Source of the DNA: a virus
Strand: one strand, 5' to 3'
IMG/VR virus record: IMGVR_UViG_3300042564_005954
Location: 1-62,553 of that record
DNA length: 62,553 bases
The translations under genes were made by a program, and so were the position numbers. Each line of letters begins with the position of its first letter. Within the stretch, counting starts at the first letter, position 1. The notes under the pieces are model-generated. The model was not told where the DNA came from, searched no databases, and was given only the letters and a program-made list of their open reading frames with translations. Positions 18,830 through 60,184 of the stretch are shown here, piece by piece.

Positions 18830-18840
18830 TAATATATAAT
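18830..18840 (+). promoter_or_regulatory. Late-promoter-like motif
   Basis: TAATATATAAT, 15 bases before the start at 18855. Same core as the other structural-gene motifs. Confidence 0.5.
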
Positions 18841-54642: not shown

Positions 54643-54668
54643 AAATTCTTAAAACAAATATAATTAAG

Positions 54669-54678
54669 AATATATAAT
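54669..54678 (+). promoter_or_regulatory. Late-promoter-like motif
   Basis: AATATATAAT, in the context GAATATATAATCT, about 135 bases before the SSB start. The transcript would carry the GGCAAT leader. Confidence 0.4.
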
Positions 54679-54712
54679 CTATATAGGAATTAAATAATTC
54701 TTATGTATCAAC

Positions 54713-54820
54713 GGCAATAACAACGGCAATTTTATTAAGGCAATCCCGGGCAGCAATTAATTAAGTAATCGTGGTTAGGCAATTTTATAATTTTAAAAAA
54801 AGGCAATTTATTATGGCAAA
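54713..54820 (+). promoter_or_regulatory. GGCAAT-repeat leader of the SSB gene
   Basis: GGCAAT occurs at 54713, 54725, 54739, 54778 and 54802, with AGCAAT at 54752 and GGCAAA overlapping the start codon at 54815. Five exact copies of a hexamer in under 100 bases just before a gp32-type gene suggest a translational operator. T4 gp32 binds its own mRNA leader to stop translation; here the repeat may play that part. Confidence 0.6.
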
Positions 54821-55733
54821 CGAATTTGATATTTTTAACATTAGTGTATCTGATTTAGATACAGGAGAAAAGCCCTCTCAGAGCAGTGATTTATATTCTC
54901 CAAAACCTGATCAAGGACAAGACGGAACATATCGTTCTTTGATTAGATTTCTACCAAACGCAAAAAATCCAAGAAAACCTTACGTTAGAAAATTTAACTA
55001 TTGGTTAGAAGACAGAGAAGGCAATGGCTTTTATATTGACTCTCCATCAACCGTTGGAGAAAAATGTCCTATCCAAGATGCATTCTTTAAACTTAGAAAC
55101 TCTGAATCTGCTTTAGATAAAAAAATGGCAGAATCTCTAAAAAGAAGAGAAGTTTTTTATGCTCTTGTACAAATTGTTAAAGATCCACAAAACAGAGATC
55201 TTGAAGGACAGGTTAAAGTTTTTAAATTTGGTTATAAAATTAAGGCAAAAATTGACGAAGAGCTTAATCCTCAATTTGATGAACCTACACAAATCTTTGA
55301 TCCATTTGAAGGTAAAAACTTTGAATTAGTAATTTCTAAAAAGGCTGGTTTTGCAAATTATGATTCTTCTAAATTTCAAGGCAGTAGATCTCCTATGACA
55401 TTAGGCGGATCTCAAATTGAAAATACAGAATCAGGTAGAAAACAAATTTTGGAATATTTACAAAAGGCTCCAGATTTAGGAAACTTTGATTATAAAGCAT
55501 GGACTGATGAACAGAGATCTAAGGTAATGAACGTTTTATCTCAATACACATCACCAGGTGAATCTATTGCAACAGTAACTAAAACAAAAGAAGCTCCTAA
55601 GAAACAAAAAGTTGAGGAGCAGAAAACTAAATATTCTGCTGAAGAAGACTTCTCACATGAACCTACGGTAACAGAAAGTTATGGAAGTTCTGATGATAAC
55701 TTAGATGACTTTATCAATGGTTTAGATCTATAA
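54813..55733 (+). CDS. Single-stranded DNA-binding protein, gp32-like
   Basis: A 306-residue SSB. Features shared with T4 gp32: KNPRKPYVRKFNYWLED, a CPIQDAFFKL segment, KVFKFGYKIKAKID, then FDPFEGKNFELVISKKAGFA and NYDSSKF. An acidic C-terminal tail ends DDNLDDFINGLDL, which recruits replication partners. The CxxC zinc site of gp32 is not complete here. ATG 54813 is chosen; a GTG at 54771 extends into the GGCAAT leader. It is followed by primase with one-base spacing. Confidence 0.88.
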   Translation: MANEFDIFNISVSDLDTGEKPSQSSDLYSPKPDQGQDGTYRSLIRFLPNAKNPRKPYVRKFNYWLEDREGNGFYIDSPSTVGEKCPIQDAFFKLRNSESALDKKMAESLKRREVFYALVQIVKDPQNRDLEGQVKVFKFGYKIKAKIDEELNPQFDEPTQIFDPFEGKNFELVISKKAGFANYDSSKFQGSRSPMTLGGSQIENTESGRKQILEYLQKAPDLGNFDYKAWTDEQRSKVMNVLSQYTSPGESIATVTKTKEAPKKQKVEEQKTKYSAEEDFSHEPTVTESYGSSDDNLDDFINGLDL

Positions 55734-59008: not shown

Positions 59009-60184
59009 ATGAGCAAAATTAAAAAATTCTCTAACATAGTTTCTGCAAAAATAATTTCAGAATCTACAGAAACTGAAAAAGGACAAGCTGCTGTAGAAGC
59101 CTTAATTAAAAAAATGGGTTATAATAGTATTGAAGAACTTAAGCGTGAAAAAACACTTATTTCTAAATTAGAAAATCTTATGAAAGAGTTTTCTCCAAAG
59201 AATGATATAAGCGAGGATGAAGCTGAAGATATTGAAGATGAAGTTGTAAAAAGAGGTGAGCCTAAGTCTTTGGAAGGAGATGCTGGTAAAAAAGAAGAAG
59301 GTGGAGAAGTTGGTACAGAAGATGATGAAATTACTGAAGATGAAGCAGAAGATATTGAAGCTGAAGTAGTTAAAAGAGGTGAACCTAAAGAATTAGATGA
59401 TGAAGATGAAGACGATGACGATGATGACGACATTGAAGAAGATAAAGCCGAAGATATTGAAGCTGAAGTTATAAAAAGAGGAAAGCCTAAGAGTTTAGTA
59501 GAAGATGAAGCAGAAGATATTGAAGACGAAGTTTTAAAGAGAGGTGAGCCTAAAGATAAATCAGCTGAATTGGAAGATGAATTGGAAGATAAGGTTACTG
59601 TGAAAGGCAAAGAAGTTAAAAAGAAAGATGGCGCAGTATTAAAAACAAGTAAAAGAATACTTTCATTTGATGAATTTATTGCAGAAGAAACTGTAAATAA
59701 AAATGTTTCTTATCAAGACGACGAAGAAGAAACTGAAGACAATGCAGTTCCAGTTGCTGCTTCTTATCAACATAAAGGCGGTAAAAGTGTAAATGAAAAA
59801 AAGGAAGTTGCAGGTAAAGACGCAGGAAATCTTATTAAAGGTGCAGGCACTGGAAAAAAACTTATGATTGATGATATTACTTATATATGTCTAGGCGGTG
59901 GTAAGTGGAAAAATGAAAACAGTGGAGAAAAATTAAATTGGATTCAACTATCAGCAATGGCATCTGCATTAGGTAATAAAGAAGTAATTTTTGAAGGTGA
60001 AGTAAATGAAGCAGAGATTAAAAGTGATGAAGAATTTAAAGAATACACTACTACAGTTTTAAAGAAAGCCTTTGGCGATAAATTTGATCAAGCAAAAGCA
60101 GACGAAGTAGCTGATGGTTTAATTAGTAAGCACAGCGGAGATTACGGCGCAATGGTAGGCGCTCTTCAGGCTTCTTTAGGATAA
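59009..60184 (+). CDS. Repetitive acidic protein with cleavage-like sites (putative head-core protein)
   Basis: A 391-residue, very acidic protein. Four copies of a roughly 20-residue repeat with core EDEAEDIEDEVVKRGEPKSL lie between residues 66 and 183, each led by an I/L-x-E tripeptide (ISE 67, ITE 108, IEE 142, LVE 163). A D/E tract occupies 130-145. Residues 217-227 (ILSFDEFIAEE) resemble the T4 capsid-targeting form. The C-terminal helical domain (about 335-391) is a separate unit. T4 head-core proteins are cut at L/I-x-E into small acidic peptides; the same fate is suggested here. It precedes the leader-bearing gene at 60196. Confidence 0.6.
   Translation: MSKIKKFSNIVSAKIISESTETEKGQAAVEALIKKMGYNSIEELKREKTLISKLENLMKEFSPKNDISEDEAEDIEDEVVKRGEPKSLEGDAGKKEEGGEVGTEDDEITEDEAEDIEAEVVKRGEPKELDDEDEDDDDDDDIEEDKAEDIEAEVIKRGKPKSLVEDEAEDIEDEVLKRGEPKDKSAELEDELEDKVTVKGKEVKKKDGAVLKTSKRILSFDEFIAEETVNKNVSYQDDEEETEDNAVPVAASYQHKGGKSVNEKKEVAGKDAGNLIKGAGTGKKLMIDDITYICLGGGKWKNENSGEKLNWIQLSAMASALGNKEVIFEGEVNEAEIKSDEEFKEYTTTVLKKAFGDKFDQAKADEVADGLISKHSGDYGAMVGALQASLG

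Follow-up and report, generated by a model that had tools for sequence, protein, structure and literature searches.

The window analysed here, the whole 62,553-nt stretch of the viral record IMGVR_UViG_3300042564_005954, carries a gene for an SSB of the gp32 family (Table 1), preceded by a Cpn10-like gene and followed by a primase-like ORF and a UvsW-like helicase. The preliminary description of this DNA had called the gene gp32-like, and the searches agree: the product matches PF08804 with 79.7 bits against a cut-off of 26.8 (E = 4.1e-22, profile search) and the T4 gp32 structure 8gme with E = 1.6e-19 (PDB search). At the sequence level, the match to the gp32 core is clear despite the loss of two zinc-ligand cysteines; in the alignment to the gp32 structure, one of the three zinc-ligand cysteines of T4 (ETC..DSCPVC) is kept in the window SSB (KCPIQ). 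A basic KRKST-like N-terminal motif is a feature of T4 gp32. The SSBs of the window and its relatives lack such an N-terminus as well as most T4 zinc-ligand cysteines, and most of them have an acidic DDFINGLDL-like C-terminal tail. An AlphaFold model of the SSB, built from 17 sequences, reached a pLDDT of 44 and was set aside. An in-frame extension of ssb from an upstream GTG was rejected, because the frame closes soon upstream and the conserved start is the ATG GCA at 54813. The primase-like ORF was recognized by eye from its zinc-finger and toprim-like motifs and had no Pfam match. Elsewhere in the window, the ORF at 59009–60184 has acidic repeats of the EDEAEDIEDEVVKRGEPK type.

Gene starts in the window and in a 181-kb relative are A/T-rich and almost free of Shine-Dalgarno sequences (4 SD-like among 269). 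Some left-end promoters of the window read TATATTTG, in agreement with the Bacteroidota promoter consensus, and the ribosomal protein bS21 is encoded in 7 of 13 related contigs (L364–L370). Because of these three features, we consider a host in Bacteroidota likely for these T4-related phages. This agrees with a report, cited in PMC9976891, that myoviruses encoding bS21 infect mainly Bacteroidia. A host search in GTDB genome contigs found no relative. Several of the bS21 genes lie directly after a tRNA-like sequence, and the readable ones are without Shine-Dalgarno sequences, unlike the rpsU of Flavobacteriales hosts. Two promoter classes are present in the window. The left-end genes have promoter-like TTG..TATATTT(G/A) sequences close to gene starts (upstream of 149, 1131, and 8930), and the structural genes have AATATATAA late-type elements. 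Elements resembling the one upstream of ssb also precede further late genes in the window, for example at 18833, 20188, 24038, 26408, 30234, and 58985, and an ssb-specific transcript presumably starts at the late-type promoter in front of the leader.

Table 1. The ssb leader and gene in the window.
Feature	Position	Strand	Basis
Late-type promoter element, AATATATAATCT region	54668–54679	+	AATATATAAT / TATATAAATA element ~13 nt upstream of P1 in related leaders sharing the architecture
P1, 5' hairpin (ATATAGGAATTA..TAATTCTTATGTAT)	54681–54708	+	MFE fold; compensatory changes in relatives
GGCA box 1 (GGCAAT), base of P2	54713–54716	+	Exact match, spacing
P2/P3 hairpin: P2 UAACAACGG / UCGUGGUUA, P3 AUUUUAUUAA / UUAAUUAAGU	54718–54777	+	MFE fold; covariance model R1
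GGCA box 2, in or beside P2	54725–54728	+	GGC of the box paired with GCU in most relatives
Apical loop GGCAATCCCGGGCA, GGCA boxes 3 and 4 around a 6-nt palindrome	54739–54752	+	Same loop anatomy in relatives
GGCA box 5, immediately 3' of P2	54778–54781	+	Exact match, spacing
A/U-rich unstructured stretch before the start	54782–54801	+	Low folding energy; A/T content
GGCA box 6 at −11, after AAAAAAA	54802–54805	+	GGCA 4–8 nt before ATG in 66/66 leaders
ssb gene, gp32 family	54813–55733	+	PF08804 and PDB gp32 matches; ATGGC invariant in 66 distinct starts

Five exact copies of GGCAAT and two near copies running into the gene start had been described earlier, and their positions bear this out. 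The exact copies begin at 54713, 54725, 54739, 54778, and 54802, directly before the ATG. Of the two near copies, one is CCCGGGCAGC, with its GGCA at 54749, and the other is ATGGCAAAC at the start codon, which contains GGCA box 7 at +3. The hexamer is not over-represented over the whole window (23 found, 26 expected). The leader array is the densest 108-nt cluster among window hexamers with at least three G/C, and when the leader was dinucleotide-shuffled 5000 times, five copies of GGCAAT or of any such hexamer were never reached. The box 6 region doubles as an AAAGG Shine-Dalgarno-like match.

Leaders from related phages, whose SSBs are 52–75% identical to that of the window, were collected by IMG/VR scans. 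The first query returned 529 stretches, and further scans added more divergent loci; a query with a distant huge-phage SSB returned one record, identical to the query. The scans gave 333 leader copies, of which many share a contig; they comprise 66 distinct leaders in 23 clusters below 90% similarity. All 66 show an A-rich run, GGCA, 4–8 nt, and then ATGGC, and each has 3–7 GGCR boxes, mostly spaced 10–13 nt apart; the reverse complement of these boxes occurs in none of the 23 cluster representatives. The boxes fall into two groups: the hairpin region has 3–5 of them, and most leaders add a pair 10–14 nt apart around the AUG. Since the number of GGCAAT copies varies from 0 to 5 among the leaders, conservation applies to GGCA, and the window stands out for its many copies of the full hexamer. 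The hexamer array is thus real, but its conserved unit in relatives is shorter than first given, and the full element (about 54668–54825) exceeds the interval of 54713–54820 to which it had been assigned.

The array is also specific to ssb. The window and the 181-kb relative (G001) together have 269 ORFs, of which the two ssb genes alone are preceded by at least five boxes (5 or 6); the others have at most three. A pattern search of 12 contigs for AAAGGCA near an ATG found ssb and scattered matches, somewhat above the backward control. The check for conservation in relatives proposed with the preliminary description was run, and refutation by non-conservation failed, GGCA leaders being present at ssb in every distinct leader. 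The start region resembles the 5' strand of P2 (GGCAAUUAACAUGGCAAAU versus GGCGAUAACAAGGCAAAAU in L029), with weak secondary model matches.

Most leaders continue from the late-type promoter into P1 (AAAGG..CUUU in most), P2 (UAACAAGGC/GCUUUGUUA and variants), and P3, whose apical loop opens with GGCAAU, often followed by CCCGGGCA. Leader length is roughly 130 nt, of which the A/U-rich tail takes about 35–55 nt in most relatives. The 45 nt before the ATG are at least 71% A/T (mean 81%, 23 clusters), and the segment from −40 to +12 folds at only −1.5 kcal/mol in the window and at −0.2 to −5.1 kcal/mol across clusters. In L249, L331, and similar divergent clades, P1, P2, and P3 are rebuilt from different letters and the boxes are kept.

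The fold was evaluated by alignment and by covariance models. In an unfitted alignment (A2), 83% of cells are paired, compared with 34–51% when slid, and 50 cells carry double changes, compared with 21.9 ± 5.6 in shuffles, in which sequence relatedness remains, and 7–22 in slid controls. A model-fitted alignment has two-sided changes in 17 of 21 pairs against 8.7 ± 1.6, the fitting itself favouring structure. A covariance model (R1) built with the window left out scores 27.7 bits at 54676–54781, with a genome-wide E of 6e-4, and also recovers six further divergent leaders that had been held out. In 12 of 13 contigs, the 181-kb one among them, it finds a single copy of the structure per genome. 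Scores of held-out leaders with and without structure are 60 versus 43 bits for L233, 38 versus 24 for L331, and 28 versus 22 for the window. A sequence-only model of the same alignment gives a lower score in 7 of 8 cases, and L249 is found only with structure; L084 scores better without it, and L082 and L261 have no clear match to the covariance model. In up to half of the aligned sequences, P3 and the inner pairs of P2 are disrupted.

Minimum free energy of single sequences was rejected as proof of structure, as it is not significant (mean z −0.6 over 23 clusters, −0.26 in the window). Rfam gave no significant match for the window leader (best E 0.99, far below gathering) or for the leaders of seven relatives. 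A pseudoknot between the apical loop and the start region was set aside, since the comparison of relatives gave no conserved complementarity of at least 5 bp linking the loop to the tail or start region. An on-off switch between the 3' strand of P2 and the start codon is suggestive in the L029 group (UAACAUGGC versus GCUUUGUUA) and was likewise set aside, the pairing being lost, by eye, in the window, L249, and L334.

The loop between boxes 3 and 4 contains the palindrome CCCGGG at 54745–54750, replaced by CCTAGG or TCTAGA in some relatives and by CTCGAG in L261. A 6-nt palindrome is present in the P3 apical loop of 15 of 21 clusters, against 4 expected, and is absent from clades with A/U-rich loops. 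In L249, L331, L133, and L261 it changes as a palindrome, which suggests kissing-loop dimerization. That the SSB would read GGCA boxes phased at 10–13 nt on the folded leader with the palindromic loops kissing, so that the operator is an RNA dimer, is a rather unlikely elaboration.

Taken in order, the layout comprises the late-type promoter, P1, P2/P3 with boxed loops, the A/U-rich tail, and a box pair 12–13 nt apart straddling the AUG. We think it fairly probable that this leader is a cis-acting translational operator through which the gp32-type SSB represses its own translation. The operator reading proposed in the preliminary description finds partial support in the conserved, ssb-specific leader, but it had overlooked the covarying structured RNA and the boxes on both sides of the AUG. 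We infer that the SSB is the protein that binds the GGCA leader because of the gene adjacency, the restriction of the array to ssb, and what gp32 is known to do. When in excess of single-stranded DNA, the SSB would bind the boxed hairpin first and then extend through the unstructured tail as far as the two boxes around the start codon, whose coverage would block 30S access; once DNA takes up the SSB, the leader would be freed and translation would resume. P1 probably shields the 5' end of the ssb mRNA. Against an SSB operator count the ordinary folding energies, the disrupted pairs in P2 and P3, and the poor fit of L084, L082, and L261, as well as the facts that the T4 operator has no GGCA array and that gp32 is largely sequence-nonspecific.

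In the first alternative, the leader is a structured cis-regulator of ssb, but GGCA is read by an RNA-binding protein of the phage or host other than the SSB. GGCA is a specific motif, unlike the UUAAA/UAAA of gp32 (PMC535899), and the boxes are conserved both paired and unpaired; a dedicated regulator should, however, act on several targets, and the array precedes no other ORF of the 269. RegA, the T4 translational repressor, was considered as this ligand and dropped, its family PF01818 being unmatched in the 13 contigs in a search whose control was likewise silent. Overall, a ligand other than the SSB seems unlikely.

The boxes could instead serve initiation, with AAAAAAGG at −11 acting as a Shine-Dalgarno-like sequence in a host that seldom uses one, possibly linked to phage bS21, and the hairpin acting as an mRNA stabilizer. 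Only 6 of 269 ORFs have AAAGG just before the ATG, whereas at ssb it is fixed, over half of the related contigs encode bS21 (7 of 13), and in Bacteroidia the use of Shine-Dalgarno sequences is blocked by bS21, with extended ones controlling rpsU (PMC9976891). We nevertheless judge this explanation quite improbable: it accounts for one of the five to seven boxes only, leaves the C and A of GGCA unpaired with the anti-Shine-Dalgarno, and relies on a short AAAGG where an extended sequence is said to be required (PMC9976891), and the readable phage bS21 genes themselves have no Shine-Dalgarno. A DNA-level element, either sites for a transcription regulator or replication iterons, would suit a regular spacing of 10–13 nt, which resembles one DNA turn, and the palindromes within the array. 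It is very improbable, as the boxes lie downstream of the promoter in a single orientation and reach into the start codon, and compensatory changes keep the RNA helices with wholly different sequences (e.g., in L249). A functionless chance cluster in an AT-rich leader, for which the lack of genome-wide GGCAAT enrichment might speak, is hardly credible and already refuted because the array is conserved in relatives (66/66), besides the shuffles (0/5000), the single copy per genome, and the ssb-only array.

Autogenous translational control by an SSB raises the question, posed by the T4 work (PMC535899), of how a sequence-nonspecific protein singles out its own mRNA. Because dozens of distinct leaders have the same regular code of boxes and a fold that covaries, specificity is testable here box by box. 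Uncultured phages of this group can also be annotated with the leader as a well-defined RNA motif, and translation is probably controlled through it in hosts that make little use of Shine-Dalgarno sequences. A literature search found no paper on such an ssb leader. Judged from sequence comparison, what appears new is the structure and conservation of the leader, with the SSB as its presumed ligand; autogenous control of a gp32-type SSB is already known.

Among known systems, the gene V protein of filamentous phages, an SSB, represses gene II mRNA through a short G-rich leader site. In both cases, a phage SSB would repress translation by way of a leader element that contains G; the target of the gene V protein is another gene, whereas here it would be the ssb leader itself, and the C and A of GGCA are also conserved, which a G-quadruplex would not need. 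The autoregulation of Flavobacterium rpsU by bS21-lacking ribosomes (PMC9976891) shares an A-run and GG before the start in an SD-poor lineage, but has an extended Shine-Dalgarno that is absent here and does not account for the upstream boxes and hairpins.

The closest parallel is the gene 32 operator of T4 and RB69 (PMC535899). Experiments have established that T4 gp32 represses its own translation: it first binds a folded element at the 5' end and from there covers an unstructured, repeat-bearing tail across the ribosome-binding site, its known RNA specificity being for UUAAA/UAAA repeats; the operator regions of T4-like phages are highly divergent, and conserved features are hard to find (PMC535899). 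Both systems have the leader of a homologous SSB gene, in which a folded 5' part gives way to about 45 nt of unstructured, A/U-rich sequence with short repeats over the ribosome-binding site, and this T4-type stretch up to the AUG is present in our leaders. The differences lie in the parts. A pseudoknot of ~28 nt in T4 and RB69 corresponds to extended P1 and P2/P3 hairpins here, with no conserved loop-to-tail pairing found, and the UUAAA/UAAA repeats correspond to GGCA boxes every 10–13 nt, which lie inside the folded part and straddle the AUG. UUAAA itself has, as a raw count, 0–1 copies in 16 of 23 clusters and forms no array. The regulatory logic would therefore be that of T4 gp32, executed with different helices and a different recognition code.
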